Below the pieces are notes generated by a model. That model saw only the letters and a list, made by a program, of their open reading frames with translations. It made no database searches and had not been told where the DNA came from. The translations under genes were made by a program, and so were the position numbers. A stretch of DNA of 64,000 nucleotides, taken from the NCBI RefSeq assembly GCF_037154075.1, contig NZ_JBANRJ010000001.1, forward strand, positions 2,537,501 through 2,601,500. The letters run 5' to 3'. Positions 977 through 63,514 of this stretch are shown piece by piece (positions within the stretch are counted from its first letter, which is position 1; the number at the start of each line of letters is the position of its first letter). The stretch is from Sphingobium aromaticiconvertens. GTDB lineage: Bacteria; Pseudomonadota; Alphaproteobacteria; Sphingomonadales; Sphingomonadaceae.

Positions 977-992
977 CCAGAAGGCGGGTAGG
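977..992 (+). promoter_or_regulatory. Weak copy of the shared CCNNNC-N4-GRTAGG element
   Basis: The sequence CCAGAA-GGCG-GGTAGG has the invariant CC and GGTAGG parts of the element found upstream of eleven other genes here, but the distal half-site lacks its final C. It points toward the SMP-30-like gene and ends 47 bp before its ATG. Confidence 0.35.
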
Positions 993-1039
993 CCAGGCGG
1001 GCTAAAGATATACGCTGTGGGAAAGTGATTGGAGAGACG

Positions 1040-1963
1040 ATGGCGGGTAAGCTCGAATTCCTGACCAGCGGGCTGATGATGCCCGAAGGCCCGATCGCGA
1101 TGCCGGATGGCAGCGTACTGGTGGTCGAGGTGCTCGGCCGTCGCCTCACCCGCGTCGCCGCCGATGGCAGCCGCACGATCGTCGCCGAACTCGGCGGCGG
1201 GCCGAACGGTGCCGCGATCGGCCCGGACGGACGCTGTTATGTCTGCAACAATGGGGGTTTCGACCACGTCGAGCTCGAAGGCAGCGTGCTGCTGCCGCAC
1301 GAGGCACCCCATGATACGCCGCCGGGATCGATCCAGGTCGTAGATCTGGAAACCGGCGATTTCGAGACGCTCTACGCCCACAGCGAGGAAACACCGTTCT
1401 GGGGACCGAACGACATCGTGTTCGATGCCGCAGGTGGCTTCTGGTTCACCGATTTCGGGCGTGATCGGGGACGGGCGCGGATGCGTGGCGCGATCTATTA
1501 TGCGCAGGCGGACGGCAGCGCGATCCGCGAGGTCGTTTCGCCGGTCGATGCGCCCAACGGCATCGGACTCTCACCGGACGGTGGCACGCTCTATGTCGCC
1601 GCGACTTATGAGGCGCACCTGCTTAGCTTCCGCCTGTCGGCGCCCGGCATGATCGATCCAGCGGGCGCGATGATGCCGAACGGCGCCAGCATCGTCGGCC
1701 GAGCTGGGCCGGGGCAGTATCTCGACAGCCTTGCGGTGGATGGCGCCGGCCGGATTTGTGTCGCATCTCCGGGTGGTGGCGCGATCCTGGTATTCTTGCC
1801 GGAAGGCGGCTCGCCAGACGTCATCGCCATGCCTGATTTCCTCACCACCAACATCTGCTTCGGCGGACCCGATTTAAAGACCGCCTATGTGACGCTGGGC
1901 AGCACCGGGCGCGTGGCGGTGCTGAACTGGGATGTGCCCGGCCTGGAACTTGCTTATGCCTGA
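1040..1963 (+). CDS. SMP-30/gluconolactonase family protein
   Basis: This 307-residue protein has the six-bladed propeller pattern of SMP-30/gluconolactonase/LRE enzymes, which open lactones with a divalent metal. The expected metal ligands are visible as Glu16 in MMPEGP, an Asn in WGPNDIVFD, an Asn in APNGIGLSPDG and an Asp in LDSLAVDGAG. An in-frame GTG lies 15 bases upstream, but ATG at 1040 has GGAGAG three bases before it and gives the family's usual N-terminus, so I prefer it. The substrate is unknown. In a ring-degrading region it could hydrolyse a lactone formed by Baeyer-Villiger or extradiol chemistry, which is inference only. Confidence 0.85.
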   Translation: MAGKLEFLTSGLMMPEGPIAMPDGSVLVVEVLGRRLTRVAADGSRTIVAELGGGPNGAAIGPDGRCYVCNNGGFDHVELEGSVLLPHEAPHDTPPGSIQVVDLETGDFETLYAHSEETPFWGPNDIVFDAAGGFWFTDFGRDRGRARMRGAIYYAQADGSAIREVVSPVDAPNGIGLSPDGGTLYVAATYEAHLLSFRLSAPGMIDPAGAMMPNGASIVGRAGPGQYLDSLAVDGAGRICVASPGGGAILVFLPEGGSPDVIAMPDFLTTNICFGGPDLKTAYVTLGSTGRVAVLNWDVPGLELAYA

Positions 1964-2008
1964 GGTGATCATCTAGGGTCAGGACCTATTAAATCGTCGA
2001 ACAGGAAG

Positions 2009-2040
2009 GGGGCGTCGCAGGACGCGCGCCTTTTTGTTTT
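2009..2040 (+). terminator. Possible Rho-independent terminator after the SMP-30-like gene
   Basis: A GC-rich hairpin with a GCGTC/GACGC stem and GCAG loop is followed by CGCGCC and a run of five T, then TTTT. It lies between the convergent SMP-30-like and kinase genes. The stem is short and followed by five unpaired bases before the T run, so the call is tentative. Confidence 0.4.
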
Positions 2041-2087
2041 CCTGGCGAAACAGCTTCAGACTGGGCGCGGTCGAACCGCGCCCGGTC

Positions 2088-3236: not shown

Positions 3237-3268
3237 GATTATCCTCTCACTTTCTTGTTTTGGAAATT

Positions 3269-4570
3269 TCAGATCTCTTCCGCTCGCTTTATACTGTGTG
3301 AAGCCAGGACGAGGTGAACGCCGCCCCAGAGGACGAACACCATCGCGATACCGATGCCCCAGGCGACGCCGCGCGTGCCGCCGACATAATCGCTAATCGC
3401 GCCGATCAGGAACGTGCCCGCACCCACGCCGATCAGGTTTGCGCCAAGTTGCACTAGCGAGACCGCAAGCCCACGCAGTCGGGCGCCTGCAATATGCACG
3501 ATCACAGCGTAGATAGGCCCGTTATACGAAGCGCAGAAGAATCCGCATGCCATCATAAACGCCATGGTGATCGTGAAATCGTCGAAGGCGACGGTGCCGA
3601 CGCCGGTTAGGGCAGTGACGAAGGGGATGGTCGCACCGAGCATGGCCGTCCGCGCCGGATTGAAGCCGCCCATCCGTCGGTTGAGCCAATCGGCACCCCA
3701 GCCTGCCGCGAAGCCGCCCAACGATCCGACGACGCCGAAAGCGATCGCGACCGTCAGCCCCGCCTTGCTGATGGGCATGTCGTGGACGCGGATCAGGAAC
3801 GTCGTGAGCCAAGTGCTCATCCCGTAGATGCCGGTTGCGATCAGGATGATCGCGGTGATGCAATGCGCAAGGCCGGGACGGCCGAGGAGCAGACGGATAC
3901 GTACTCTAAGGCTCGCGGTCTCGAGTGCCGCGTCCGAGGGGACGACCGCATCGCGGCCCCCGCGCTTGGGTTCACGCACCGTGAAGAGCAGCAGCGGGGC
4001 GATCAACAGTCCGGGGATGCCGGCGGCGAAGAATGCCCAGCGCCAGCCATAGGCCTGTACGATCGCGCCGCCGACGAAGAAGGCGATGGCTAGGCCGATG
4101 CCCGAACTAAGATACCAGAGTCCGATCGCGGTCGACCGCTTGTCCTTGTCGAAATAGTCGCTGAGCAGCGACATGCCGGTGGGCGATCCTGCCGCTTCTG
4201 CGGTGCCGACCGCCGCGCGGCCGAGCAGCAGCGTCCAGAACCCGGTTGCGAGTCCGCACAATGCTGTGGCGCTGCTCCAGATTGTGAGCGCCAGCGTCAT
4301 GATATTGCGCCGGTTGTGGCGATCGACGGCCATGCCGAAGGGAATTGCGGAGATCGCGAAGAAGATCCCATAGGCGAAGCCAGCGAGAAACCCGAGCTCG
4401 CGGTCCGTCAGGCCGAATTCCTTGCCGACGGGCGCGAGCACCAGGCCGATGATCGCCCGATCGATACCGTGGCAGGTCTGCGCCAGCGTCAGGACGCCAA
4501 GAACGTACCAGCTATAGCGCTCGGACACAGTCTTCACGGTTTCAGTGGTGCGGAAATCATTGGCCAGCAT
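3269..4570 (-). CDS. MFS transporter
   Basis: This 433-residue protein has about twelve hydrophobic segments and the MFS loop 2-3 motif at GMAVDRHNRRN. Two halves with symmetric motifs are visible, the second around GWGADWLNRRMGG. Such carriers in catabolic clusters import organic acids or terpenoid-like substrates; the specificity cannot be read from sequence. The reading frame extends 81 codons further upstream, but that extension is arginine- and proline-rich and non-homologous in look. ATG at 4570 follows GAGAGGA and gives a normal MFS N-terminus. It diverges from the luciferase-like gene at 5202 across a 631-bp gap. Confidence 0.88.
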   Translation of the reverse strand: MLANDFRTTETVKTVSERYSWYVLGVLTLAQTCHGIDRAIIGLVLAPVGKEFGLTDRELGFLAGFAYGIFFAISAIPFGMAVDRHNRRNIMTLALTIWSSATALCGLATGFWTLLLGRAAVGTAEAAGSPTGMSLLSDYFDKDKRSTAIGLWYLSSGIGLAIAFFVGGAIVQAYGWRWAFFAAGIPGLLIAPLLLFTVREPKRGGRDAVVPSDAALETASLRVRIRLLLGRPGLAHCITAIILIATGIYGMSTWLTTFLIRVHDMPISKAGLTVAIAFGVVGSLGGFAAGWGADWLNRRMGGFNPARTAMLGATIPFVTALTGVGTVAFDDFTITMAFMMACGFFCASYNGPIYAVIVHIAGARLRGLAVSLVQLGANLIGVGAGTFLIGAISDYVGGTRGVAWGIGIAMVFVLWGGVHLVLASHSIKRAEEI

Positions 4571-5201
4571 TAGAAAAAATCCTCTCGCGGAGTATGCATC
4601 TCGCGGCGCGCCTGATGAGCGCAGCCTCAGCATTCCCGTGCGCGGCCCGACAAAGACCTGTCGTAGGAAAGGTGGCGGCCAAGGCCTTGTGGATGGAAGT
4701 TCCGTCATCAGCCGTTTCCGGCGCGATCGAATGCGACTTGGCGGTCGGGCGATACAATCGCTGCGGCCGCGGGAGCCTGGATTGTATGGATGGCAACAGG
4801 GTGTTGATTTCAAATGAGATGTGACCCAAGAAGGTCAGGAATTTCCATTAAGAATTGACCCATGTTGAACTCACCCCAGGCTTTGGCGAGCGAGGGGTCG
4901 TGGAGTGTTGGACATGGCATCATTGAGCGTTATCACATGCTGCTCGACGCGCCGCCGCCGATAGCTTGGCCGAATGTAAGCGTGCGAACCGGCGTCGAAG
5001 CGTAATCCGCAGTTAAAACCTATCTAACTGAATTATATGTTAAAATTTTCCATGTAGGGACGGTCGGCACTTGTACGGATTGCGCGGTCGTTATGAACCG
5101 CGAGCGCAAATATTCAACTATCCTTCGACAGGGGAAAGAGCCGAAAAGCTTGGGCACCGACAGTCCTGCAATGGACAAATTTGGTTGCAAGGGAGCGGGT
5201 A
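4571..5201. other. 631-bp non-coding gap with a tandem repeat
   Basis: No convincing gene is seen between the MFS gene and the luciferase-like gene. The stretch holds two imperfect direct repeats (4806-4828 and 4840-4862, sharing GACCCA and an ATTTC core) that resemble the multiple end-repeats of IS21-type elements. It also holds a single CCTATC half-site at 5019-5024 and an AT-rich stretch near 5030-5060 that could carry promoters for both divergent genes. Confidence 0.6.
4806..4862. repeat. Tandem imperfect direct repeat, possible IS21-type end remnant
   Basis: Two 23-bp units start at 4806 and 4840. On the minus strand both read TGGGTCA, six variable bases, then a GAAAT-containing tail. 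IS21-family elements carry several such repeats near their ends. No transposase frame is intact next to them, so this would be an old remnant. Confidence 0.35.
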
Positions 5202-6224
5202 ATGACCCAACGCAAAGCAGTGTGGGCGCAACTTGTACCGATGCCCGGCGAAACCCTGGCCTCAGTGGCGCAGGGGTACGAGGCGGCCGGGGTTGCGGGC
5301 ATGTGGGCGCCGCAGATGTTTGGTGCTCCTTTCACCACATTGGCGGCTGCGGCGCCGGTTACGGAGCGAATCAAACTTGGGACAGGTATTGCGCTGGCTT
5401 TTGTTCGTAGCCCTCTCGAGACTGCGTGCAGTGCAATTGACCTTGACCTTATCAGCAATGGCAGGGTGGTTCTGGGGCTGGGATCCAGCGCTCAAAGCCA
5501 GATAGAAGGCTCCTTCGGCAGCACTTATGGCAAGCCGCTGGCGCACATGCGCGAAATCGTAGGCATGATCCGAGAGATTGTGGCGCGGGGCCATACCGGA
5601 GAATTGACGCAGTTGGAGGGCGAATATCATCGCCTCGACCTGTCGCATTTTCGCCTTCTTCAGCCGCCGGTACGAAGCGACATTCCTATCGTCTTGCCTG
5701 CCGTGTTCCAGAAAGCCTGCGCCCAGGCGGGAGAGATTGCCGACGGGCTATTGGGCCACCCGTTGTGGAACGATGCCTGGATCGAGCGAGAGGTGATCGC
5801 CAATCTCAAAACGGGGCTCGATCGGAGCGGTCGGGCTCGCAAGGACTTCTCGCTCAACATCTCGATCTTTACTGCGATCGCGGAGGATCGGCGCGAAGCG
5901 CTTGAAGATTGTCGCCCGACTGTGGCTTATTATAGTCAGTCGCCCCAATATCTGCGCTACTTCGAGGAAATAGGCTTCGGCCGGGAGGCAGCGGCGATTC
6001 AGGCTGCCTTCGCACGGGGGGATGATGTTGCTATGACCGCAGCCTGCACCGATGCGATGGTGGAAAGCATTGCGATCGTCGGTTCGGCTGACGAAGTGCG
6101 CGCGCGGGTGGAGAAGCGCGCGATGCATGCCGACGCGATCACTCCGGTCATTCCGCACTATGGCTTGTCACCGGAAAAGAGTGCAGCTTATTCCAAGCGC
6201 ATAGCGGACATTTTTTATGGATGA
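5202..6224 (+). CDS. LLM-class flavin-dependent oxidoreductase
   Basis: This 340-residue protein has the luciferase-like (bacterial luciferase/F420-dependent) TIM-barrel pattern, for example the early GYEAAGVAGMWAPQMFGAPF, the RIKLGTGIALAFVRSP strand and LISNGRVVLGLGSSA. Members use reduced flavin or F420 to oxygenate or dehydrogenate substrates. An upstream TTG could extend it by seven codons, but ATG at 5202 has AGGGAG about seven bases before it. The stop overlaps the start of the methyltransferase gene by eight bases, so the two are probably translated together and act on one compound. The cofactor (FMNH2 or F420H2) cannot be fixed from the sequence. Confidence 0.88.
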   Translation: MTQRKAVWAQLVPMPGETLASVAQGYEAAGVAGMWAPQMFGAPFTTLAAAAPVTERIKLGTGIALAFVRSPLETACSAIDLDLISNGRVVLGLGSSAQSQIEGSFGSTYGKPLAHMREIVGMIREIVARGHTGELTQLEGEYHRLDLSHFRLLQPPVRSDIPIVLPAVFQKACAQAGEIADGLLGHPLWNDAWIEREVIANLKTGLDRSGRARKDFSLNISIFTAIAEDRREALEDCRPTVAYYSQSPQYLRYFEEIGFGREAAAIQAAFARGDDVAMTAACTDAMVESIAIVGSADEVRARVEKRAMHADAITPVIPHYGLSPEKSAAYSKRIADIFYG

Positions 6225-7275
6225 AGGAAAAGCCAATCCGATAGCCCCGATGGCTGGGGGCGGGCTTTATAATCGGCATTCTTCCCTTCAGAACGCCAAT
6301 CTCCAATCTGCCCTGCCCCTGTTGGGGGCGGCTGCGCAGATCGTGGCAAACGAGGGGCCCGCAGTCGTGACGATTGCGGACTATGGCGCGTCGCAGGGCC
6401 GTAATTCGATGACGCCCATTGGCAGGGCGATAGACCTCGTCCGCTCAACCAATCCAGACCGGCCCGTTCAGGTCGTCCATACCGACTTGCCTTCCAACGA
6501 CTTTGCCTCGCTATTCACCCTGCTGGATAGTGATCCGACCAGCTATCTGAAGGGGAGGAGCGGGATTTTTCCCTCGGCAATAGGGCGGTCCTATTTCGAC
6601 ATCATATTGCCGCCGGGTAGCGTGGATCTGGGCTGGTCATCCAATGCGCTGCACTGGATGAGTGGCAGTCCTGTCGACGTCGATGATCATGGCTGGGCGA
6701 TCTTCAGTCAGGAAGCAGGGGCATGTGCCGCCGTGGATGCGCTCCTCGCAGATGATTGGTTACGCTTTCTCACGGCCCGCAGTGCCGAACTGCGTCCCGG
6801 AGGGCGGCTCATTTGCCAGTTCATGGGGCGCGGCCCGGTTCATCATGGGTTTGAATGGATGGCCGGGCATTTCTGGCAGTCGATCGTGGCGTTGCGGGAA
6901 GAAGGGTGGTTAACGGCCGAGGAAACTCGACAGATGACAGCGCCATCGGCTGGTCGGTCGTTAGAGCAACTGGCCGCACCGTTTGATAAAGGACGGGTAC
7001 CCGATTTGAATCTCGAACACCTGACCCTGTTCGAATCTCCCGACCCCTATTGGGATGAGTTCCAGAGTTCAGGCGACGCGGAACGGTTGGGGACTCAATG
7101 GGCCAATATGATGCGGGCCGCCAACGGCCCGAATTTCGTGGCGGCCGTCAACGCATCGCGTGATCATAACGCCATCCTCAATGCCCTCGTAAAGACGCTC
7201 TCTGCTCGTATCGCTGCCGATCCCCAGCGGAGCCACTCTTGGAATGTTCTCGTTTCCATCAGCAAACGGTTTTGA
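6217..7275 (+). CDS. SABATH-type carboxyl methyltransferase
   Basis: This 352-residue protein matches the SABATH family (salicylic acid, jasmonate, juvenile hormone acid and gibberellin carboxyl methyltransferases). Landmarks in order are GGGLYNRHSSLQ (residues 14-25), the SAM-binding ADYGASQGRNS (54-64), DLPSNDFASLF (90-100) and GWSSNALHWMS (139-149). The family esterifies small carboxylic acids using SAM and is best known from plants and insects; bacterial members are rarer. The start overlaps the upstream luciferase-like gene by eight bases. It may mask or release a carboxylate of the pathway substrate, or make a signal ester; this is inference. Confidence 0.82.
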   Translation: MDEGKANPIAPMAGGGLYNRHSSLQNANLQSALPLLGAAAQIVANEGPAVVTIADYGASQGRNSMTPIGRAIDLVRSTNPDRPVQVVHTDLPSNDFASLFTLLDSDPTSYLKGRSGIFPSAIGRSYFDIILPPGSVDLGWSSNALHWMSGSPVDVDDHGWAIFSQEAGACAAVDALLADDWLRFLTARSAELRPGGRLICQFMGRGPVHHGFEWMAGHFWQSIVALREEGWLTAEETRQMTAPSAGRSLEQLAAPFDKGRVPDLNLEHLTLFESPDPYWDEFQSSGDAERLGTQWANMMRAANGPNFVAAVNASRDHNAILNALVKTLSARIAADPQRSHSWNVLVSISKRF

Positions 7276-7313
7276 AACGCCGCTCGCAAAAGTCATTTTA
7301 CGTGAAAAGAAAG

Positions 7314-7353
7314 TGCCCCCAAGATCCGTCAGCTACGACGGATTTTGGGGGCA
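7314..7353 (+). terminator. 17-bp stem hairpin after the methyltransferase gene
   Basis: Arms at 7314-7330 and 7337-7353 pair over all 17 positions with a single G-T wobble, closing a six-base AGCTAC loop. It starts 39 bp after the methyltransferase stop. No T run follows, so it may terminate by other means, stabilise mRNA ends, or be part of a mobile remnant. Confidence 0.55.
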
Positions 7354-7379
7354 TGTCGATGACAGCGATCAGGCTCGCA

Positions 7380-7794: not shown

Positions 7795-7797
7795 ACG

Positions 7798-8073: not shown

Positions 8074-8666
8074 AGCAGATACAGCAGCGCAAACAGGATG
8101 ATCCACAACAGGTCGACCAAATGCCAAAAGGCGCCGCAGCCCTCGATCAGGGCCACGCCGCCGGGCATCTGGCCGTTGCGGTCGAAGCGCGAGGCGGCGA
8201 AACAAAGAACAGCGAGGCCGATCAGCACATGGATCAGATGGATGCCGGTAAACATGTAATAGTAGATAGAGAAACTGTTGCTGTTGAGAGTGAAGCCCTG
8301 AGCGATCTTGGCCGAATATTCGAACGCCTTGACGATCACGAAGCTGCTGCCGAGTGCGATCGCGCCGAGCAGCAAGGGGCGTGCGCGGCGGTCATGGCGG
8401 CGAACGGCGGCGACTGCCTGGGCAACAAACAGGCTGCTGGTCAACAGCAATAATGTGTTGAGCAGGCCAAGGCGCCGGTCGAGCAACGTCTGCGCGCTTT
8501 CGAACAGGGCCAGTTCCTGGCGGCGCGCAACGGCATAGGTGATGAAGAAGACGGCAAAGGCGACCAGGTCGCCGCCGATGAAGACCCAGACGCCTTCCTC
8601 TCCCGGTACATGCCCGCGCGTGCTGCGGGCACGGCCATGTAGTTCGGATAGGGGTTGGACCGTCAT
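8070..8666 (-). CDS. Cytochrome c oxidase subunit III family protein (NorE-like)
   Basis: This 198-residue protein has about five membrane segments and the subunit III features FGI-type HLIHVLIG near residue 150 and EGCGAFWHLVDLLWIILFALLYLL at the C-terminus. The short N-terminus (GEEGVWVFIGGDLVAF) fits NorE-type accessory proteins of nitric oxide reductases and short oxidase subunit III forms. Start and stop overlap the flanking genes by four bases on each side (ATGA), so it is translationally coupled in a trio. Its role within a catabolic region is unclear; it might assist a haem-copper oxidase that removes electrons from quinol-linked dehydrogenases. Confidence 0.78.
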   Translation of the reverse strand: MTVQPLSELHGRARSTRGHVPGEEGVWVFIGGDLVAFAVFFITYAVARRQELALFESAQTLLDRRLGLLNTLLLLTSSLFVAQAVAAVRRHDRRARPLLLGAIALGSSFVIVKAFEYSAKIAQGFTLNSNSFSIYYYMFTGIHLIHVLIGLAVLCFAASRFDRNGQMPGGVALIEGCGAFWHLVDLLWIILFALLYLL

Positions 8667-9358
8667 TCGCCGGCCAGCACGTTGCGCTTGATCGAGCCGA
8701 GCATGGCGAAGATCATCAGGTTGAACCAGATGCCGAACACCACCGCCGGCACCCAGAAAGCGAGTACGCCGTTCCAGGCGAAAGGGCCGACCTTAAACAG
8801 CCCCACGGCAAGGCCGGGCAGCAGCAGCACGCCAGTCCACAGGTTCATGTAGCCCAGCCAGCGCGGCAGGATCGGCTGCGCACGCTTGTCGCCGAGAATG
8901 GCGATGCCGGTCACGACATTTTGCACGAAGGCCGGGACGGCGGGCATGACGAACAGAAAAAAGGCGATGTCGCTCAGCGTCGCGATGATCGCATCGGGAT
9001 TGTCGGGGCGATAAGCGGCGGCGGTAAAGAAAAGGCCGGCGAAGAAGACGGTGACGAAGCCATAGGCACAGATCATCACGAACGCCCAGGTCAGGGGCGA
9101 AACCGGCCCCTCGATCTTCTTGAGGAAGGTCGCAACCGCCGCGAGGAAGGGGAAGAACAGCACGGAGCAGGCCATGATGAGGATCGCGCCGACCAATATT
9201 CCGGTTTGGTGCGCGCGATAATAATCGGCGACCTCGGCCGCGGGCAGCGCTGGGGCGAGCGGGGGGAACATCTGCGCGAGCGGCCATATGCCGATGAACA
9301 TCAATGTTCCGGCGACGGCACCCATATAGGTGCATAATTTCATGGTCGTGCTTTTCAC
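8663..9358 (-). CDS. Multi-pass membrane protein of unknown function
   Basis: This 231-residue protein has six to seven hydrophobic segments, starting with MGAVAGTLMFIGIWPLAQM and ending with GIWFNLMIFAMLGSIKRN. I do not recognise a named family with certainty; the pattern resembles DUF4386-like membrane proteins. GTG at 9358 follows AAGGAGGGG with seven bases between, which is the best ribosome site in the region, and an ATG five codons later is an alternative. It heads the operon with the NorE-like and NorF-like genes (four-base overlap). Its promoter would lie in the 155-bp gap that also holds a GRTAGG element. Confidence 0.7.
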   Translation of the reverse strand: MKSTTMKLCTYMGAVAGTLMFIGIWPLAQMFPPLAPALPAAEVADYYRAHQTGILVGAILIMACSVLFFPFLAAVATFLKKIEGPVSPLTWAFVMICAYGFVTVFFAGLFFTAAAYRPDNPDAIIATLSDIAFFLFVMPAVPAFVQNVVTGIAILGDKRAQPILPRWLGYMNLWTGVLLLPGLAVGLFKVGPFAWNGVLAFWVPAVVFGIWFNLMIFAMLGSIKRNVLAGE

Positions 9359-9428
9359 GCCTGTTCCCCTCCTTGCGCGCATCATGTGCGTCTCGACGGT
9401 AAAGTGGGTAGCGACGGGACGCAGGCCA

Positions 9429-9444
9429 CCCGCCCTTGGGTAGG
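9429..9444 (+). promoter_or_regulatory. Shared element CCNNNC-N4-GRTAGG (site 1)
   Basis: The sequence is CCCGCC-CTTG-GGTAGG. The conserved half faces the NTF2-like gene, 69 bp before its ATG. It lies in the divergent gap with the membrane operon and could serve both sides. Confidence 0.7.
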
Positions 9445-9513
9445 GTTCCGCCAGGCCTTCCCGCCTGCACATGACGCGGCGACGCGATGCGTCTGCGCTG
9501 GCGGAGACAGAGA

Positions 9514-9906
9514 ATGGCCGAAATCGAGGCGAACAAGATGGTAGCGCGGCGCTATATGCGCGCGGTCGAGGAGGGGGACGTCGCCACGATCGAGGCGTTG
9601 CAGCATCCTGACTGTACCTGGTGGATATTGGGCCATGGCGACATGAGCCGCGCCGACTTCATCGCCAGCGTTAAGGCAGGTCTTCTGACCGCGTCGAAGC
9701 GCACGGCGCAAATTGTAGGTATCACCGCCGAGGGTGATCGGGTCGCTGTCGAGGTGCGCGGCGAGATGGTGTTCGCCGACCGGGTCTATCGCAACGAATA
9801 TCATAACCTGCTGATCATAAGGGACGGGCAGATTCTGTCGGGCAAGGAATATATGGATACGCGGGTGGTGGCCGAGGCATTTTCCATCGAAGGCGGCGCC
9901 AAGTGA
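9514..9906 (+). CDS. NTF2/SnoaL-like protein
   Basis: This 130-residue protein has the cone-shaped NTF2 fold pattern: an N-terminal helix (VARRYMRAVEEGDVATIEAL), a tryptophan-rich strand and a C-terminal EYHNLLIIRDGQILSGKEYMDT segment. Family members act as isomerases, dehydratases, epoxide hydrolases or cyclases on small hydrophobic substrates. ATG at 9514 follows GCGGAG, and the longer upstream frame is Arg-rich and unlikely. The stop overlaps the GTG start of the APH-like gene (GTGA), so it opens a forward operon of six genes. Confidence 0.82.
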   Translation: MAEIEANKMVARRYMRAVEEGDVATIEALQHPDCTWWILGHGDMSRADFIASVKAGLLTASKRTAQIVGITAEGDRVAVEVRGEMVFADRVYRNEYHNLLIIRDGQILSGKEYMDTRVVAEAFSIEGGAK

Positions 9907-11280: not shown

Positions 11281-11296
11281 CCGTCCCTCCGATAGG
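11281..11296 (+). promoter_or_regulatory. Shared element CCNNNC-N4-GRTAGG (site 2)
   Basis: The sequence is CCGTCC-CTCC-GATAGG. It lies in the 75-bp gap after the APH-like gene and ends 49 bp before the SDR start, with the conserved half facing the SDR. It implies an internal promoter in the operon. Confidence 0.7.
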
Positions 11297-14304: not shown

Positions 14305-14305
14305 C

Positions 14306-19322: not shown

Positions 19323-19338
19323 CCTATCGAGCGGAAGG
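19323..19338 (-). promoter_or_regulatory. Shared element CCNNNC-N4-GRTAGG (site 3)
   Basis: Read on the minus strand the sequence is CCTTCC-GCTC-GATAGG. The conserved half faces the SDR gene, 89 bp before its start at 19233. Confidence 0.7.
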
Positions 19339-20073: not shown

Positions 20074-20089
20074 CCTACCTTACGATAGG
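20074..20089 (+). promoter_or_regulatory. Shared element CCNNNC-N4-GRTAGG (site 4)
   Basis: The sequence CCTACC-TTAC-GATAGG is a nearly full inverted repeat. It lies 35 bp before the first ATG of the GntR-family gene (95 bp before its alternative GTG). Confidence 0.7.
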
Positions 20090-22020: not shown

Positions 22021-22072
22021 CGGGCAATCCTTCCAGGCGGGCAATCCTTCCAGGACGGCCAATCCTTCCAGA
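22021..22072 (+). repeat. Three tandem 17-18-bp direct repeats
   Basis: Units start at 22021, 22038 and 22056 and share CAATCCTTCCAG. The third carries two changes and its CCTTCC forms the distal half of the GRTAGG element at 22064. Slippage duplication of part of the operator is a simple origin. Confidence 0.75.
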
Positions 22073-22079
22073 CGGTAGG
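22064..22079 (+). promoter_or_regulatory. Shared element CCNNNC-N4-GRTAGG (site 5)
   Basis: The sequence is CCTTCC-AGAC-GGTAGG, 51 bp before the P450 start and facing it. Its distal half lies inside the third tandem repeat. Confidence 0.7.
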
Positions 22080-31884: not shown

Positions 31885-31900
31885 CCTGTCCTTGGGTAGG
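31885..31900 (+). promoter_or_regulatory. Shared element CCNNNC-N4-GRTAGG (site 6)
   Basis: The sequence is CCTGTC-CTTG-GGTAGG, 62 bp before the OYE-family gene and facing it. A lone CCTATC half-site at 31828 is not counted. Confidence 0.7.
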
Positions 31901-33859: not shown

Positions 33860-34861
33860 TCAAACGAGGCGGATCAGCCGCTTGCCGTGATTTTCTCCCC
33901 GATAGAGGCCGGCGAGTGCATCGGGGCAGGCCGCGATGCCGTCCAATATGTCCTCGCGCCACTTGAGGTGGCCATCCTTGATCCAGGCCCGCAACTGCGC
34001 GACGGCCTCGGCGCAGCGGGCCATATGGTCGAAGATGACGAAACCTTCCATGCGGGCACGCTTCACCAGTAAATGCCGTTCGACGCGGGGGCCAAGGGGC
34101 CATGGAGCCCAGCGATCAATCGACGCAGTGCCACAGACCACCACCCGGCCGCGCAGGGCGAGGTGGGGAAGAACCGTGTCGCTGATCGCACCCGCGACGT
34201 TGTCGAAATAGATGTCGATCCCATTCGACGCTGCCTTGGCAATGGCGGGACCTAAATCCTGGCTCCGGTAGTCGAGCGCCGCGTCATAGCCAAATTCCTC
34301 GACGCACCGTCGGACTTTGTCCGGGCCGCCAGCGATGCCGATCGTTTGGCAGCCCAGGATGCGCGCGATCTGGCCCGCCGCCGAGCCAACCGCACCAGCG
34401 GCGGTCGAAACCAGCACGGTTTCTCCCGCCTTGGGTTGGCCGACCAGGGTCAGGGCAAGATAGGCGGTGACGCCGTTGATGCCCAATATGCCGAGAGAAG
34501 CGCGCATTTCCTGCGCATTGGTCCGCTGGACGATCTGCTCCGGCGTCACGCAGGCATAATCCTGCCATCCGAACCAGCCGGATACATAGTCTCCGGCCTG
34601 ATAATCGGGATGCCGCGATTCGACGACCTCCCCGGATGCCAGGCTGCGCATCACCGATCCGAGTTCGATCGACGTGGCATAGTTGCCGACGTCGGCGATC
34701 CAGCCGCGCATCGCGGGCTCGACCGAGAGATAATGATTGCGCACCAGCAGCTCGCCTGGCTGCGGATTTGCTATGGTGGATGTGCGGATCGCGAAATGTT
34801 CGGCCTGCGCAATGCCGGTCGGACGAGCCACCAGGACCACCTGTCGATTGCCGTCAGCCAT
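33860..34861 (-). CDS. MDR-family NADP-dependent alkenal/enone reductase (CurA/PTGR-type)
   Basis: This 333-residue protein matches the leukotriene-B4-dehydrogenase/prostaglandin-reductase branch of the MDR superfamily: NHYLSVEPAMRGWI near residue 45, the NADP fold VLVSTAAGAVGSAAGQIARILG near 145 and YFDNVAGAISDTVLPHL near 220. It has no zinc ligands. It should reduce an enone or enal double bond. ATG at 34861 overlaps the NTF2 gene stop by eight bases; the upstream frame is not homologous. Confidence 0.9.
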   Translation of the reverse strand: MADGNRQVVLVARPTGIAQAEHFAIRTSTIANPQPGELLVRNHYLSVEPAMRGWIADVGNYATSIELGSVMRSLASGEVVESRHPDYQAGDYVSGWFGWQDYACVTPEQIVQRTNAQEMRASLGILGINGVTAYLALTLVGQPKAGETVLVSTAAGAVGSAAGQIARILGCQTIGIAGGPDKVRRCVEEFGYDAALDYRSQDLGPAIAKAASNGIDIYFDNVAGAISDTVLPHLALRGRVVVCGTASIDRWAPWPLGPRVERHLLVKRARMEGFVIFDHMARCAEAVAQLRAWIKDGHLKWREDILDGIAACPDALAGLYRGENHGKRLIRLV

Positions 34862-35297
34862 CCAGTCCTGCCTTGACCATGGTGAAGCGGCGACGGGCGA
34901 TCTTCCAACCGTCGGAGGTCCGGACCAGCGCGTCGTCATAATAGCCCGCCGCACGATGCGTTATGCCACCCTGGGTCGCTTCGGTCAGGATCGCATCGAC
35001 ATAGCTGCGTGCGCGGATTTCGTCATTGCAGTTCTCCACGACGATGTTCGTGATGCGGTGCAGGGTCGACCCCATGTGTCGGTGCGCCGCTTCCATATAT
35101 TCGGTGATCTCGCGGGGGCCGCGCCAGCTGCCGAACGAACCATAGTCGGCTTCGCAGTCTTGCGAAAAGCAGGTTCTGAAAAGCGGCCAATCCCGTGTGT
35201 CTATGCCCGTCGCATAGCGCAGTAACAGCCTGCGTATCGCGGACTCGTCGTCCGCCGCGACCGGCTGGCGCCTGGGCAGGCTGCTAGGTGCCCGCAT
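34854..35297 (-). CDS. NTF2/SnoaL-like protein
   Basis: This 147-residue protein has the dehydratase/SnoaL pattern AIRRLLLRYATGIDTRDWPLFRTCF and a C-terminal GYYDDALVRTSDGWKIARRRFT. It resembles the proteins of this type at 40898 and 60225. Several ATG codons are in frame; 35297 has GGGAGG six bases before it. It could catalyse an isomerisation, a dehydration or a ring-hydration step; no active-site prediction is secure. Confidence 0.83.
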   Translation of the reverse strand: MRAPSSLPRRQPVAADDESAIRRLLLRYATGIDTRDWPLFRTCFSQDCEADYGSFGSWRGPREITEYMEAAHRHMGSTLHRITNIVVENCNDEIRARSYVDAILTEATQGGITHRAAGYYDDALVRTSDGWKIARRRFTMVKAGLDG

Positions 35298-35350: not shown

Positions 35351-35366
35351 CCCGCCGAAGGATAGG
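35351..35366 (+). promoter_or_regulatory. Shared element CCNNNC-N4-GRTAGG (site 7)
   Basis: The sequence CCCGCC-GAAG-GATAGG is 72 bp before the ABM-domain gene and faces it. The same gap precedes the divergent NTF2-MDR-SDR run. Confidence 0.7.
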
Positions 35367-41409: not shown

Positions 41410-41425
41410 CCTTTCGTTCGGTAGG
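41410..41425 (+). promoter_or_regulatory. Shared element CCNNNC-N4-GRTAGG (site 8)
   Basis: The sequence CCTTTC-GTTC-GGTAGG lies 80 bp before the NTF2-like gene at 41506 and faces it. Its left part is nearly the same as site 10 at 54640. Confidence 0.72.
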
Positions 41426-46064: not shown

Positions 46065-47228
46065 TCAGAAAGAGCGCGGCAAGCCGAGACTTTCGGCGAT
46101 CGTGTTGCGAACCATCTCGTTGCTGATCGGTGTCATCCGCAAAATCCGAAGGTCGCGCCAGTAACGTTGCATGTCGGTTTCCGCCGAATAGCCCATGCCG
46201 CCGAGGATCTGGATTCCCAGGTCGGCAGCCTTCACCGCATTCTCGGTAGCGACCATCTTGAGCATGTTCGCCTCAACGCCGCAGGGCATGCCATTGGCCT
46301 GCATCCACGCGACATTGTTGAGCAGCAACTCGGTCGTTTTCTGCCAGGTGGCTATGTCGGCGACATAATGTTGGAGTATCTGGAAACGCCCGATGATCCC
46401 GCCAAAGGCCTTGCGCTGCTTCATATAGTCGAGCGCGTCTTCGAGGACGCCGTCGATCGCGCCCAGACATTGTGCGCCGACCATGATCCGCTCATTGTTC
46501 AAGGTGGGCAGCATGGCATACCAGGCTTGGCCGGGCTCGCCGAGCACATCCGCGTCGGGAACAAATACATCCTCATAATGGACTTCGCATGACCCCATCG
46601 CGCGCATACCCAGTTTGGGCAGGAGCGAAGCGGTGATGCCGGGCGATTTCGCATCGACGAAAAACATGGTCAGGCCATGATGCTTCTTTTTGACATTCTT
46701 GTCGGTACGGGCGAGGACGAGTAGACGGTCGGCGGCCTTCGCTCCCGTCGTCCACATCTTCGCGCCGTTCAATTTCCAGCCGCCTTCGACCTTTTCGGCG
46801 TGGGTCTTCATCGCGCCCAGAACGTCGGTGCCGCCGTCCGGCTCGGTCATGGAGAGTGAGACGCGCAGCTTGCCTTGCGCCATCGGGCGGAGCCAAAGAT
46901 TTTTCTGTTCCTCGGTGCCGACCGCGCTGATCGTCTTGGCCCCGCCGAAGGAGGTGAGGCCCCAGACCCAGAGCAGCCCACCCGCCGTGCGCGAAAATTC
47001 GCGGGCGAAGATCATTTGCATCATGACGTCGCCGCCCAACCCGCCATATTCCTCTGGTATGCCGATGCCAAAGAAGCCCTGCTCGGCAATCTTGTCCCAC
47101 AGCGCGTAGGGGTAATTTTCCTCGTCGGCCTCCAGCGCGCGCATCCAGTCCTTGGGTGCTTCGGCTTCAACCCAGCGGCGAACGATATCGCGGAACGCCT
47201 GCTGCTCCTCGGTGAGCGAAAAATCCAT
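46065..47228 (-). CDS. Acyl-CoA dehydrogenase
   Basis: This 387-residue ACAD is a paralogue of that at 20856-22019, with the same length. It has SMTEPDGGTDVLGAM, the catalytic-region QRKAFGGIIGRFQ and QILGGMGYSAETDMQRYWRD. The start at 47228 matches the paralogue's start and removes a 12-residue non-homologous extension. It leads a reverse run with the MaoC pair and VOC gene. A GRTAGG element lies 55 bp upstream. Confidence 0.92.
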   Translation of the reverse strand: MDFSLTEEQQAFRDIVRRWVEAEAPKDWMRALEADEENYPYALWDKIAEQGFFGIGIPEEYGGLGGDVMMQMIFAREFSRTAGGLLWVWGLTSFGGAKTISAVGTEEQKNLWLRPMAQGKLRVSLSMTEPDGGTDVLGAMKTHAEKVEGGWKLNGAKMWTTGAKAADRLLVLARTDKNVKKKHHGLTMFFVDAKSPGITASLLPKLGMRAMGSCEVHYEDVFVPDADVLGEPGQAWYAMLPTLNNERIMVGAQCLGAIDGVLEDALDYMKQRKAFGGIIGRFQILQHYVADIATWQKTTELLLNNVAWMQANGMPCGVEANMLKMVATENAVKAADLGIQILGGMGYSAETDMQRYWRDLRILRMTPISNEMVRNTIAESLGLPRSF

Positions 47229-47283: not shown

Positions 47284-47299
47284 CCTATCGCTCTATAGG
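47284..47299 (-). promoter_or_regulatory. Shared element CCNNNC-N4-GRTAGG (site 9)
   Basis: Read on the minus strand the sequence is CCTATA-GAGC-GATAGG, facing the acyl-CoA dehydrogenase 55 bp away. The flank GAGAACCTATC on the plus strand differs by one base from the corresponding flank of site 11 at 63499. The element overlaps the end of the upstream FMN-reductase gene. Confidence 0.7.
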
Positions 47300-49367: not shown

Positions 49368-50324
49368 TCAGGCCTCCGCAGGTTCTGTATTCTGGATAAA
49401 TTCGGGGAAGGGGTCTGGCCCCCAGAGGAACATGCTGTCTTCCGGCGCATGATTGGCCGAGGGCCAGTCGACATCATGCGGGATGAAGTCGATGTCGGCG
49501 GAATATTCACTGAAACTGCCCCACGGATCGCGGACATAATAGAAATAGTTGGCGCCCAGCACATGCTGGCCGACGCCCCAATTGGGGCCATAGCCCGCGC
49601 GTGCCATGGTTGCGCCGCCAAGCCCGACTTCCATGACCGAACCAACGTCCCAACTGTTATGATGCATACCGCGCCGGTCCGACAGCACGAGCGCGAGCAG
49701 ATGGTGGTCGCTGCCATGCACACCGTGCAGAAATGCTACGGCCGGCTCGCTCTTGTCGGACAGTCGCAAGCCGAGTGTTTTTTCATAATAGTCGATCGCG
49801 GCGTTCACATCTGTAGTGAATATCGCAAAGTGCGACAGTCGCCGCGGATGCACCGGTGGCGCCTTGCTGTTGGGTATGGCCCCGGACTTGCCCGGTTCGG
49901 AACTTACGAAGGAAAAGTGGCTCTTTTCGGAGGGCGTTGCCTTGTCCGCTGCGCGTACATTGATCGGCAGACCGTCAAAGCCGCTGAACCAGATGCCGCT
50001 GGTTTCGGCGCCTGCGGGCGCCTCGATCAGCTGGACGCCACAATCATCAAGGTGCGAGCGGAAGGCCGCCATCTCATCGGGGTAGACGCCGAAGCTCAGA
50101 TAGCACAGGCGCCTGGTATCGCCGCCTTGGCTGATGATAGCCCAGCGATGCGGGTTGCCCCGCGTATACAGTTCCAGCCTACCATCCTTGTCCCGCACAT
50201 CGAGGCCAAAGAGGGTATAGAAACGGCGCGCATCTTCCAATTCGGGCACTTCAACCGCGAAATGGTCGATGGAATGGATGCCCAGCACATTGGCGCGGCG
50301 TCCGGCGGTGCTCTTTTCGTTCAT
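49368..50324 (-). CDS. Type I extradiol ring-cleavage dioxygenase
   Basis: This 318-residue protein has two VOC domains. Metal ligands expected for type I enzymes are His165 in RLSHFAIF, His221 or His222 in GMHHNSWDV, and Glu273 in SFSEYSADID. It should open a catechol next to its hydroxyl groups, as the BphC, HsaC or DitC enzymes do. AAGGAGG before ATG 50324 fixes the start; the long upstream frame lies inside the FAA-hydrolase gene. FAA-hydrolase and hydrolase genes flank it in the same direction. Confidence 0.9.
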   Translation of the reverse strand: MNEKSTAGRRANVLGIHSIDHFAVEVPELEDARRFYTLFGLDVRDKDGRLELYTRGNPHRWAIISQGGDTRRLCYLSFGVYPDEMAAFRSHLDDCGVQLIEAPAGAETSGIWFSGFDGLPINVRAADKATPSEKSHFSFVSSEPGKSGAIPNSKAPPVHPRRLSHFAIFTTDVNAAIDYYEKTLGLRLSDKSEPAVAFLHGVHGSDHHLLALVLSDRRGMHHNSWDVGSVMEVGLGGATMARAGYGPNWGVGQHVLGANYFYYVRDPWGSFSEYSADIDFIPHDVDWPSANHAPEDSMFLWGPDPFPEFIQNTEPAEA

Positions 50325-50377
50325 CCTGTCCTCCTTGGCTGGTGGGGCGGCGCTGAGAGACACCGCCCCACCGTAGA

Positions 50378-51229
50378 TCAGGCCGCCTTGATCGGATTGA
50401 CCAGCAGGCCGATCTTTTCGATCTCCACTTCGCACACGTCCCCGTCCTTCATGAACAGGGGAGGATTGCGCGCTAGGCCAATGCCCGACGGCGTTCCCAT
50501 CACCAGCACGTCGCCTGCTTCGAGCGTGAAGCAGGTCGATAGCAAGGCGACGGTGTCGACCACGTCGAACACCATGTCGGACGTGTTGGCGCTCTGCACC
50601 GTCTGGCCGTTGAGGCGTGTCTCGATCTTGAGGCCTGCTCCGCCAGCGGGTAATTCGTCGGCGGTTACTAACCAGGGGCCAAAGGCGCCGGTGTCGTCGA
50701 AATTCTTGCCGACGGTCCATTGCGGTGTCTTGAGCTGATAGTCGCGGATGGAGCCGTCGTTGAACACCGAGTAGGCCACGATGTGGGTGAGGGCATCCTC
50801 CTTGGCGATATCCTTGCCGGGCTTGCCGACTACCGCCACCATTTCCGCTTCATAGTCTAGCTGATCGGAGCAGGGCGGTTTGATGATCGGAGCGCCATGG
50901 CCGATCAGGCTGGAATTAAACCGCCCGAACACCGTTGGAAATTCCGGCACCTCGAAGCCGCCCTCGGCGGCATGATCCTTGTAGTTCAGCCCAAGGCAGA
51001 GAATCTTGGGTGCCTTCACCAGGGGCGGGAGGAAGGTCAGGTCGTCAAGGCTGACGTCCTCGCCACCAGCCACGACGGCCTCGCCCGCCTTTGTCAGCGC
51101 ATCGCCGCCCTGCGCGATCAGCGCGTCGAGATCATGGAGCGCGGCATTGCCGAACAGCGCCTTGAAGCCTGCACCTGTATCGACTGCCAAGCCGGTCTGC
51201 CCGTTTTTTGAAACCTTAGCTAAACGCAT
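50378..51229 (-). CDS. Fumarylacetoacetate-hydrolase-family protein
   Basis: This 283-residue protein has the FAH metal-site Glu cluster in DYEAEMVAVVGKPGKDI and an LCLGLNYKDHAAEGGFEVPEFP segment typical of 2-oxohepta-3-ene-1,7-dioate or acylpyruvate hydrolases. It would hydrate, isomerise or cleave the product of extradiol fission. AGGAGG precedes ATG 51229. It leads the reverse run that continues with the extradiol dioxygenase and is divergent from the GntR gene at 51360. Confidence 0.9.
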   Translation of the reverse strand: MRLAKVSKNGQTGLAVDTGAGFKALFGNAALHDLDALIAQGGDALTKAGEAVVAGGEDVSLDDLTFLPPLVKAPKILCLGLNYKDHAAEGGFEVPEFPTVFGRFNSSLIGHGAPIIKPPCSDQLDYEAEMVAVVGKPGKDIAKEDALTHIVAYSVFNDGSIRDYQLKTPQWTVGKNFDDTGAFGPWLVTADELPAGGAGLKIETRLNGQTVQSANTSDMVFDVVDTVALLSTCFTLEAGDVLVMGTPSGIGLARNPPLFMKDGDVCEVEIEKIGLLVNPIKAA

Positions 51230-54565: not shown

Positions 54566-54639
54566 GCCCACAGAAGTCCGCTCCCAAATACCGCCAGTCT
54601 CGAATTACGGTCAGATTGCAGTGCCATGCGGATCGTGCG

Positions 54640-54655
54640 CCTTTCGTTGGATAGG
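54640..54655 (+). promoter_or_regulatory. Shared element CCNNNC-N4-GRTAGG (site 10)
   Basis: The sequence CCTTTC-GTTG-GATAGG is 68 bp before the thiolase start and faces it, in the divergent gap with the CoA ligase gene. Confidence 0.72.
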
Positions 54656-55926: not shown

Positions 55927-55960
55927 GCGCGCCAACAGACCTTATAGAGCGGGAATTCCC

Positions 55961-60149: not shown

Positions 60150-60224
60150 TCCGGCGCCAGCAGTCTCTGCTTTGGTTCTTTGCTGCTCGTGCGGCCGTTC
60201 CATAGAGCAGGGACTGCCGCTGAA

Positions 60225-61587: not shown

Positions 61588-61600
61588 TATCGCCCCTGAT

Positions 61601-62377
61601 TTAGCCGCAGCCTACCACCCCACCGTCCACCGGAATTTGCGCGCCCGTGACATAGGCGCCTGCGCGAGAGCAAAGGAAGACGACGATCCCGGCGATATCG
61701 TCCGGTTTGCCGAGGCGTCGCAGGGGAATATGGTCGAGCAGCTTGGGATCGACGCTATCCTCATCGCGCATATGTGCCGTCATCTTGGTCGGGAAGAAGC
61801 CGGGAATGACCGCGTTAACGGTGATATTGCGTCCAGCAAGGTCGCCCGCCAGATCGCGTGTCATCATATGCACCGCAGCCTTGCTGGCCGCATAGCTGTA
61901 GGCGCTCAACCGCTCGGTCTTCATCCCCGCAACTGAACCGATGTTGATGATCCGCGCCGGATCATCGGCTGTAGCCGCAGCGTCTAGTTCGGGCAGGAGT
62001 TCGCGCACCATGGTGAAAGGCGTCTGGACGTTGACGGCCATCACGCCGGGCCAGGCCTTGTCGGGGAAGGTGTCGATCGACCCGCCCCAGGTCTTGCCCG
62101 CATTGTTGACCAATATGTGGCATTCGCCCACCGCAGCGCGATAGCGCGCGACCAGATCGACCGCGGCTTCGGGTGTGGAAAGGTCGGCCGGCAAGGGAAT
62201 GCAGGTCCCAAGCGAGGCCATCTCGCTGGCAGCTTGCTCGCATAGGTCGGCTTTACGCGACGTGATGGCGACGGTTGCGCCCGCGCGCAGCAAACCCTCG
62301 GCAATCATGCGGCCCAGGCCCTGCGCCCCGCCGGTGACGAGCGCCTTCTTGCCGTCCAGGCTGAACAGGTCGGTCAC
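61601..62377 (-). CDS. SDR family oxidoreductase
   Basis: This 258-residue classical SDR has TGGAQGLG (15-22), NNAG (91-94), Ser148, Tyr162 and Lys166 (SYAASKAAV) and a YVTGAQIPVDGG end. It resembles the SDR at 47849 in length and C-terminus. GTG at 62377 overlaps the MDR stop (GTGA), which gives translational coupling. It is the second gene of the MDR-SDR-SDR-NTF2 run. Confidence 0.9.
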   Translation of the reverse strand: MTDLFSLDGKKALVTGGAQGLGRMIAEGLLRAGATVAITSRKADLCEQAASEMASLGTCIPLPADLSTPEAAVDLVARYRAAVGECHILVNNAGKTWGGSIDTFPDKAWPGVMAVNVQTPFTMVRELLPELDAAATADDPARIINIGSVAGMKTERLSAYSYAASKAAVHMMTRDLAGDLAGRNITVNAVIPGFFPTKMTAHMRDEDSVDPKLLDHIPLRRLGKPDDIAGIVVFLCSRAGAYVTGAQIPVDGGVVGCG

Positions 62378-63375
62378 ATCGTCACCACGACTTTACCGAA
62401 TTTGTGGCTGTCGCGCAGGTGGAGTAATGCTTCCTTGGCCTGTGCCAACGGATAGGTGGCTTCGATCACCGGCTTGATCTTGTGCTCGCCGGCAAACGCC
62501 AGCATCTCCTGGAAATCCTGCGGATCGCCGACCTGACTGCCGACGATGCTCGCGCTTTTCAGGAAAATGTCGGTGGCGTTGAACTTGATCTCGTTGCCGG
62601 CTGTCGATCCGTAGATGACGATGCGTGCGCCGGGATTGATGGCGCGCACATAGTTGGCGAAGCTCGGCGCAGGGGCGCCATCCAGCACGACGTCAATGCC
62701 GCCCGTCAGCTTGCCGACCTGCTTGCGCCAGTCGGGGTCGGTATAGAGCAACCCACCCTTGGCCCCCATGGCGATCGCCCGATCGATCACTTCCTGGCTT
62801 TCGCCGGTCACATAGACATTGGCGCCCTTGGCGACCGCGAAGGCGAGGCCGAAAGTGGCGACGCCGCCGCCGACGCCGCTGATCAGCACGGTTTCGCCAG
62901 CTTGCAATTTGCCCTTGAACATCAAGGCGCGCCAGGATGTCAGTGCCGTGAGTGGCATGGCCCCGGCTTCCTCGAAGCTCATGAAAGCGGGCTTGGGTGC
63001 CAGATTTTCGGCCGGAACGCAGATATATTCTGCGATCGTCCCGGCAAAGGGCATGCCCAGCAGGCCGAAGTCGGCACCAGGGGCGTGGCGATCTGGTCCC
63101 CAGTTGCGCGCAGGGTAGAGGACGACCTCGTCCCCTTCGCTAACCCCGGATACCCCTTCACCGATCATGTCGACGACACCCGCGCCATCGCAGCCGAGCG
63201 TAACCGGAACGACCATGCCGGGATATTGACCATCGGTAATGAACAATTCGCGGTGATTGATCGACGCAGCCTTCACGGCGACCCGGACTTCGCCGACGCC
63301 AGGGACCGGCGTTTCGACATCCGTTACCACGACGGATTCGGGGCCAGCGATCTGCTCGAGATACAGGGCCTTCAT
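62374..63375 (-). CDS. MDR-family NAD(P)H quinone/enone oxidoreductase
   Basis: This 333-residue protein has INHRELFITDGQYPGM near residue 40, the cofactor fold TVLISGVGGGVATFGLAFAVA near 165 and GARIVIYGSTAGNEI near 255. It belongs to the zinc-less or degenerate-zinc branch of MDR enzymes, without the second Cys cluster. AGGAAAGG lies before ATG 63375. It is the first gene of the reverse run to 60225, and a symmetric GRTAGG element lies 123 bp upstream. Confidence 0.9.
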   Translation of the reverse strand: MKALYLEQIAGPESVVVTDVETPVPGVGEVRVAVKAASINHRELFITDGQYPGMVVPVTLGCDGAGVVDMIGEGVSGVSEGDEVVLYPARNWGPDRHAPGADFGLLGMPFAGTIAEYICVPAENLAPKPAFMSFEEAGAMPLTALTSWRALMFKGKLQAGETVLISGVGGGVATFGLAFAVAKGANVYVTGESQEVIDRAIAMGAKGGLLYTDPDWRKQVGKLTGGIDVVLDGAPAPSFANYVRAINPGARIVIYGSTAGNEIKFNATDIFLKSASIVGSQVGDPQDFQEMLAFAGEHKIKPVIEATYPLAQAKEALLHLRDSHKFGKVVVTM

Positions 63376-63498
63376 GGTCAACCTTTCCTAATTCATTGCC
63401 CCTGCGCTTCGGGTCGCCTGATTCTACGCGCTTGCAGTGCGTCTGCGCGACGCCCTGCCGATGGTGCCAAGCTGGACAATATCTCCGGCGGTTGAGAA

Positions 63499-63514
63499 CC
63501 TATCTGTGGATAGG
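63499..63514. promoter_or_regulatory. Shared element, fully symmetric copy CCTATC-N4-GATAGG (site 11)
   Basis: Both arms match perfectly. It lies 123 bp before the MDR gene on the minus strand and 89 bp before the LuxR/MalT-type gene on the plus strand, so it may serve both. It is the best inverted repeat of the set. Confidence 0.75.

Follow-up and report, generated by a model that had tools for sequence, protein, structure and literature searches.

A 64,000-nucleotide stretch of the Sphingobium aromaticiconvertens genome (assembly GCF_037154075.1, contig NZ_JBANRJ010000001.1, positions 2,537,501-2,601,500; hereafter the window) carries a short element, CCNNNC-N4-GRTAGG, before many of its genes, and raises the question of which protein reads this element and how far its regulon extends. 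An initial annotation, made from the sequence alone, had suggested one regulator for pathway genes and had named a LuxR/MalT-type protein as the candidate. Our analysis indicates that the palindrome CCTNYC-N4-GRNAGG is very probably the operator of a large ATP-binding regulator of the LuxR family (LAL), encoded at 63604-66285, which is predicted to activate the promoters of a catabolic island as well as its own promoter.

The element and its distribution

In the window, CCNNNC-N4-GRTAGG has 12 strand matches at 10 places (9429, 11281, 19323 on the minus strand, 20074, 22064, 31885, 35351, 41410, 54640 and 63499), with the sites at 20074 and 63499 matching both strands. The initial annotation had listed these places and expected about one match by chance; our shuffled sequences gave 0.89 matches (standard deviation 0.96), and none of 100 reached 12. 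All ten exact places are intergenic and lie 51-123 bp 5' of a start according to our own gene calls, in agreement with its description of sites in gaps before genes. Alignment of the window sites established that the element is better written as the palindrome CCTNYC-N4-GRNAGG, and because of this symmetry two further sites, at 4657 and 5117, had escaped the first inspection. Two weaker sites had also been proposed, and both read as described: CCTATAGAGCGATAGG at 47284 (minus strand) and CCAGAAGGCGGGTAGG at 977. Sequences similar to the former occur in relatives (CCTATAGTT.GATAGG in genomes G237 and G071, CCTATCGTCCTATAGG on plasmid pSA2 of Novosphingobium resinovorum SA1), whereas the latter (977-992, plus strand) falls below score 8 with a symmetric matrix and is probably no site. 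A high-scoring match of the symmetric-matrix scan at 53111 was dropped, as it lies inside coding DNA and the pSA2 ligase gene has no counterpart at a score of at least 13.

The genome scan that had been proposed gave a divided answer. The loose pattern is not enriched over the whole genome (103 strand matches against 164 for the reversed pattern), and with the reversed control being commoner it is uninformative as a genome-wide test. Across the 5.45 Mb of the genome the palindrome occurs 40 times, against 28 for its reversed pattern, and half of these 40 sites (20) are concentrated within 2,476,450-2,649,294, a 173-kb stretch that encloses the window and makes up 3% of the genome. The island of ~170 kb therefore exceeds the 60-kb extent claimed originally. 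A scoring matrix built from 11 window sites was applied to a 200-kb region that includes the window and found 26 matches with a score of at least 13, 11 of which are its training data, against 2 in a control of ten 20-kb stretches elsewhere in the chromosome (200 kb), both in coding DNA. In the own region, 24 of the 26 matches are intergenic and 24 lie within 200 bp of a start; at a score of at least 11, there are 38 matches, 34 of them within 200 bp of a start.

The same confinement to island promoters was found in relatives. Across eight islands in six genomes (1.15 Mb, genes called with a simple caller), 133 matches scored at least 13, with 9-26 per stretch; 124 are in gaps and 126 lie no further than 200 bp from a start, and the reversed-sequence control gave 20 matches in total. 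Two plasmids, pSA2 and one of Croceicoccus, for which the deposited annotation was used, have 23 matches in 200 kb (4 in the reversed control), 21 of them intergenic and none more than 200 bp from an annotated start. When motif counts were ranked over 298 genomes of the family, G237 (29), G290 (18) and the S. aromaticiconvertens genome (14) came first. In the eight islands, one half-site arrangement stands out: inverted pairs scoring at least 13 with a spacer of 4 number 142, each other inverted spacer between 0 and 25 gives 6-25, and direct-repeat pairs (18-48 over spacers 0-25) and everted pairs show no peak.

The LAL regulator and its pairing with the element

The regulator gene (63604-66285, plus strand; 2601104-2603785 of the contig) starts inside the window, which holds its first 397 bases (63604-64000), and runs past the window end. 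Its 893-residue product matches the MalT structure 8bob over residues 7-407 (E 3.9e-32), TPR_MalT at 508-788 (E 9.5e-27) and, with a C-terminal LuxR-type helix-turn-helix (HTH), the GerE domain at 832-885 (E 9.7e-14). The sequences APAGSGKTT and LVIVIDDA are present, which we take to be the Walker A and B motifs. On the features tested, namely a length of ~900 residues with a C-terminal HTH, an ATP-binding module and a tetratricopeptide repeat (TPR) sensor region, the protein is a LAL/MalT-type member of the LuxR family.

Orthologues with at least 53% identity occur in 6 of the 298 family genomes, including its own; one genome has three copies, and the element is dense around all eight. The HTH is nearly invariant across orthologues, even at 49% overall identity. 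The three paralogues of G237 (on C3, C4 and C5), which are 80, 60 and 53% identical to the S. aromaticiconvertens protein, with C4 being the 53% copy, each lie in an element-rich stretch, and their HTH regions are nearly identical. In Sphingobium sp. Ant17 (G309 C10, 39461-42138), the match to the regulator is split, one part covering residues 1-599 and the other 598-893, through a frame break or an assembly fault.

The element accompanies the regulator across genomes. The exact core is found 86-108 bp 5' of the start in 18 of 19 LALs with at least 49% identity, and upstream of none of 16 LALs with at most 32% identity. An independent test used 22 loci fetched by the extradiol dioxygenase encoded at 49368-50720, and not by the regulator or the motif. 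These represent 21 genomes, because L063 and L069 are, judged by their accessions, contigs of one metagenome-assembled genome, in which the element was seen on L069. The regulator (at least 49% identity) is present in 15 of the 21 genomes, and all 15 have the element at the thiolase promoter; in the other six the regulator is absent or at most 28% identical, and no CCTNYC palindrome was found in the fetched 11-21 kb.

Comparison with homologous clusters, which had also been recommended, revealed conservation of the element itself. At the thiolase promoter (54640), the half-site columns of 16 aligned sequences are 0.98 conserved, against 0.63 in the upstream and 0.61 in the downstream flank, and the site is kept in 15 relatives. 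A similar frequency in coding DNA or at unrelated promoters and a lack of conservation had been named as outcomes that would speak against a regulon, and tests of these did not refute it. Seven island regulators were sought in 16 neighbourhoods, and none besides the LAL occurs in all of them; as all neighbourhoods except the own one were placed by the position of the LAL gene, its presence there is by construction, and this comparison shows only that no rival is universal. The proposal of one regulator, with the LuxR/MalT-type protein as the candidate, is thus supported by the site at its own promoter, by the joint occurrence in genomes and by the distribution of its rivals.

Promoter geometry, mechanism and alternatives

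Alignment of 99 sites with a single downstream gene (no pair being 60% or more identical over 54 downstream bases) revealed an A at +40 from the first base of the palindrome in 60 sites (p ~1e-18 to 1e-19), the top column outside the site, followed by a T at +17 (55 of 99). The A at +40 is also present in 9 of 14 plasmid sites that were not used for its discovery, establishing a fixed distance to a -10-like base. With this A read as position -11 of a -10 box, the palindrome would be centred near -42.5, beside the -35 region, a position as for a class II activator. The lux box lies at such a position. The 99 sites lie 34-163 bp from the starts and cluster at ~45-95 bp (median 69). The initial annotation had GRTAGG always facing the gene; this holds as a preference in the own island, where the better half is proximal in 13 cases and distal in 5, but not in other genomes (31 against 34; 44 against 39 with 16 ties for all together).

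Based on these results, a dimer of the C-terminal HTH domain of the LAL regulator would bind both half-sites next to the -35 region. A pathway compound, acting as the inducer, would load the MalT-like sensor, presumably in an ATP-dependent manner, leading to recruitment of RNA polymerase at some 24-34 promoters of the ~170-kb catabolic island. Activation of its own promoter would create a positive loop.

Several observations weigh against this model or limit it. The -10 signal consists of one strong base, with a weak T column at -7 (33 of 99). The reversed control of the own region (2,477,501-2,677,500) gave 8 matches against 26, the background in each of the remaining seven islands being 1-3 matches. 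One of the 19 closer LALs, the C4 paralogue of G237 (53%), has no upstream site, though 9 matches are found in the 80 kb around it. The six genomes without the regulator belong to distant relatives, and three gave a short or weak match to the query, so that the count is not phylogenetically independent. Whole-genome one-strand counts overlap between genomes with the regulator (8-29) and without it (1-10), two of the latter having 8 and 10, and in the 298-genome scan seven orthologue-free genomes reach 9-12 strand matches, overlapping G156 (9), G049 (10) and G071 (10). No match scoring at least 13 lies directly 5' of the cof genes on pSA2 or the Croceicoccus plasmid. In addition, the GntR, FCD, TetR and AraC genes of the island may co-regulate.

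Alternatively, the LAL protein might bind the palindrome and repress transcription until the inducer releases it. A palindrome close to a promoter frequently serves as a repressor operator, and the sites lie 34-163 bp from starts. However, the constant distance to the -10-like base puts the element at the place of a class II activator, and the excerpts of two papers present the LAL proteins AlkS, TpdR and MalT as activators (PMC8784404, PMC6099782), making repression unlikely, although SCO6993, another LAL, is described as negative in the portion of the literature consulted. It is even harder to assign the element to another regulator of the island, whether the GntR/FCD protein encoded at 20185, the FCD-type protein at 51360, the TetR proteins at 26917 and 81267 or the AraC proteins at 84374 and 101813. 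One of the best palindromes (20074) precedes the GntR gene, on pSA2 two sites lie ahead of the GntR gene, and a site at 101733 lies upstream of the AraC gene at 101813. In contrast, GntR orthologues occur in only 4 of the 298 genomes and are absent from G156 and G290, both of which have the LAL and sites, as well as from the site-bearing Croceicoccus stretch. None of the six candidates is found in all element-bearing neighbourhoods, and none was detected (E 1e-10) with the Caballeronia and Massilia LALs, which have element-type sites. By this distribution, the universal regulator is no GntR/FCD, TetR or AraC protein, and the probability that any of the six binds the element is very small; the GntR/FCD gene at 20185 is a predicted target.

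The repeats might also be a mobile or structural element spread within the island, such as a repetitive extragenic palindromic (REP)-like sequence or a terminator hairpin, since they are palindromic, repeated and mostly intergenic. We regard this as highly improbable: the copies share little of their spacer and flanks, they cluster ~45-95 bp 5' of starts, and the thiolase site keeps its place in the relatives. Activation by the LAL regulator remains the preferred explanation.

More distant LALs (~30% identity) suggest how widely this site type may be shared. In 50 kb around each regulator, CCTATC-N4-GATAGG-like matches scoring at least 13 number 5 in Massilia, 3 in Caballeronia (one of them 119 bp 5' of the regulator) and 1 in Agrobacterium, with none in each reversed control. 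In 60 kb of G076, there are four perfect spacer-6 sites and one spacer-5 site 5' of its regulator; G193 has five strong spacer-6 sites, and G138 one spacer-6 and two spacer-5 sites. Spacer-6 counts at a score of at least 13 are 3 in G138, 4 in G076 and 5 in G193 (1, 1 and 0 in the reversed controls), to be read with the caveat that individual reversed controls with other spacers also gave 3-5. In G554, which belongs to a different family of Alphaproteobacteria, one of the two LAL copies is preceded by a perfect spacer-6 site, and the G352 protein (32% identical to that of G076) has a spacer-4 site upstream. Among the LALs compared by helix, those without EG(T/S)V(K/R)W(Y/H)(L/M)QQ have no such site upstream. 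The N4 element does not occur near every LAL: no site precedes the regulator in G127, G236, G115 and G402, and in G127, G236 and G115 there are 0-1 matches scoring at least 13 in 60 kb. A rule by which RRR in the HTH means a spacer of 4 and RNR a spacer of 5-6 is broken by G554a (RRR, spacer 6), and the association between spacer and HTH sequence is suggestive, not a rule.

These data would be consistent with an alpha- and betaproteobacterial LAL clade, marked by the EG(T/S)V(K/R)W(Y/H)(L/M)QQ helix, that shares the half-site CCTATC and has changed its spacer by lineage: 4 in the sphingomonad islands, Massilia, Caballeronia and Agrobacterium (one site), 5-6 in G076, G193 and G138, and 6 in G554 (one site). 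The spacer change possibly insulates coexisting LAL regulons, and the spacer-4 branch would alone act as master switch of mobile catabolic mega-islands with their own F420 cofactor genes. We consider the arguments for and against this broader proposal to be evenly balanced.

Target genes, island contents and known systems

At the left side of the window, the two newly recognized palindromes are CCTGTCGTAGGAAAGG (4657-4672, score 19.2), located in the gap 86 bp 5' of a major facilitator superfamily (MFS) transporter gene (3269-4570, minus strand, MFS_1), and ACTATCCTTCGACAGG (5117-5132, score 14.3), in the gap 69 bp 5' of a luciferase-like gene (5202-6224, plus strand, Bac_luciferase). The site at 9429-9444 (plus strand, score 14.2) lies between 8663-9358 (minus strand; no Pfam match as open reading frame (ORF) 8663-9472) and a SnoaL-like gene at 9514 (plus strand), and that at 11281-11296 (plus strand, score 14.2) is 52 bp 5' of a short-chain dehydrogenase/reductase (SDR) gene at 11349 (plus strand). 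The minus-strand site at 19323-19338 (score 18.6) precedes by 89 bp the SDR, flavin adenine dinucleotide (FAD), kinase-like and epoxide hydrolase-like genes running from 19233 (minus strand), and a near-perfect palindrome at 20074-20089 (score 21.4) lies 95 bp 5' of the GntR/FCD gene at 20185 (plus strand). Further sites are found 51 bp 5' of a CYP101-like cytochrome P450 gene at 22131 (plus strand; site 22064-22079, plus strand, score 15.8) and 62 bp 5' of an old-yellow-enzyme-type gene at 31963 (plus strand; site 31885-31900, plus strand, score 19.0).

Several sites are located between divergent genes, including 35351-35366 (score 15.7) between 34854-35297 (minus strand) and an ABM-domain gene at 35439 (plus strand), and 41410-41425 (score 21.3) between SnoaL-like genes at 41356 (minus strand) and 41506 (plus strand), for which several relatives have counterparts at a similar distance. 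The site with variants in relatives, 47284-47299 (minus strand, score 17.6), lies 55 bp 5' of an acyl-CoA dehydrogenase gene (46065-47228, minus strand), and 54640-54655 (score 21.9) separates a CoA-ligase gene at 54571 (minus strand) from the thiolase/β-oxidation genes running from 54724 (plus strand). Finally, a perfect palindrome at 63499-63514 (score 19.5) lies 89 bp 5' of the LAL regulator gene and 123 bp 5' of alcohol dehydrogenase (ADH)/SDR genes running from 63375 (minus strand).

The genes behind the sites include those for MFS transporters, TonB receptors, SDRs, acyl-CoA dehydrogenases, thiolase and β-oxidation proteins, P450s, an old-yellow-enzyme homologue, a BKACE enzyme and luciferase-like oxidoreductases. 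The substrate of the island was not found from the enzyme matches, which gave hints only: an HsaA-like match (E 4.7e-49) far below its cut-off, a P450 near CYP101J2 and P450cam, a dioxygenase near naphthalene and biphenyl enzymes, and one weak PDB match for the extradiol enzyme. The island also contains two Y_phosphatase3 (tyrosine phosphatase-like) genes, at 84-860 and 86748-87512, and a Methyltransf_7-type gene (S-adenosylmethionine-dependent carboxyl methyltransferase, 6217-7275 in the window), a member of a family known from plants in a bacterial catabolic cluster.

Outside the window, a site at 71035 precedes a luciferase-like gene, followed by an FO-synthase-like radical-SAM gene (Radical_SAM and CofH_C, 783 residues) with an F420-dependent NADP reductase gene; the latter two are placed between luciferase-like genes at 71117-76221 (L037:11117-16221). 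Plasmid pSA2, typed as conjugative, has a matching island with cofH, npdG, cofC, cofE and cofD, and in Croceicoccus marinus cofH, npdG, cofE, cofD and cofC are consecutive. F420 biosynthesis appears to travel with the catabolic island. Control of the F420 genes by the element was not retained, since the plasmid cof genes lack the direct upstream match, in spite of the position of the S. aromaticiconvertens FO-synthase-like gene behind 71035. On either side of the pSA2 island (~100 kb) lies a gene pair, with genes for a hypothetical protein (WP_197524514.1) and a recombinase-family protein (L177 27361-29566 and L178 32450-34655); the two pairs face opposite ways and look like the ends of a mobile element.

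If correct, this assignment would map a catabolic regulon of unusual size onto one regulator and one operator, and this regulator and its element occur together in 15 of the 21 genomes fetched by an island enzyme and on a conjugative-typed megaplasmid. The regulon would be directly testable, its promoters and sensor could be used for biosensors, and the inducer would offer a route to the substrate of the island. The spacer change between lineages makes site choice by LALs testable, and the findings further suggest that a catabolic module can carry F420 genes along.

No description of this regulon was found in the titles and abstract beginnings returned by the searches made of an open-access library. 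Related systems share some of its features. EdcR of the estradiol edc cluster in Caenibius tardaugens is likewise a sphingomonad catabolic regulator with palindromic operators, but, from the part of the source consulted, it is a repressor whose proposed operator, TnnCnnTACnAnTnGTAnnGnnA, overlaps the -10 box (PMC8700777). TpdR, the activator of the tetramethylpyrazine genes in Rhodococcus jostii TMP1, is also a LAL of a catabolic operon, with a 15-nucleotide direct repeat, TnnAAnnGCGGAnTC, as its proposed site according to excerpts of PMC6099782, whereas the repeat described here is inverted. MalT of Escherichia coli has the same architecture (8bob match, TPR_MalT and GerE), but the same excerpts give its sites as two decanucleotides in direct repeat (PMC6099782), in contrast to a single inverted repeat.

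AlkS of Pseudomonas putida GPo1, a LAL/MalT-type activator of alkane genes, is the same kind of protein with an inverted-repeat operator. No Pfam match naming an AlkB-type hydroxylase was found among 60 window ORFs, with the island outside the window scanned in part, and therefore the present system can be said to work like AlkS, not to be AlkS. In the sections consulted of PMC8784404, AlkS operators are located upstream of a catabolic promoter and of a promoter of its own gene, forming a positive loop, and the regulator described here likewise has the palindrome 5' of its own gene in nearly all orthologues. The AlkS site is a 20-bp inverted repeat acting at PalkB and PalkS2 (PMC8784404, same sections), whereas the predicted operator of the LAL regulator has 16 bp with a different sequence, CCTNYC-N4-GRNAGG, and would serve 24-34 promoters spread over the island.

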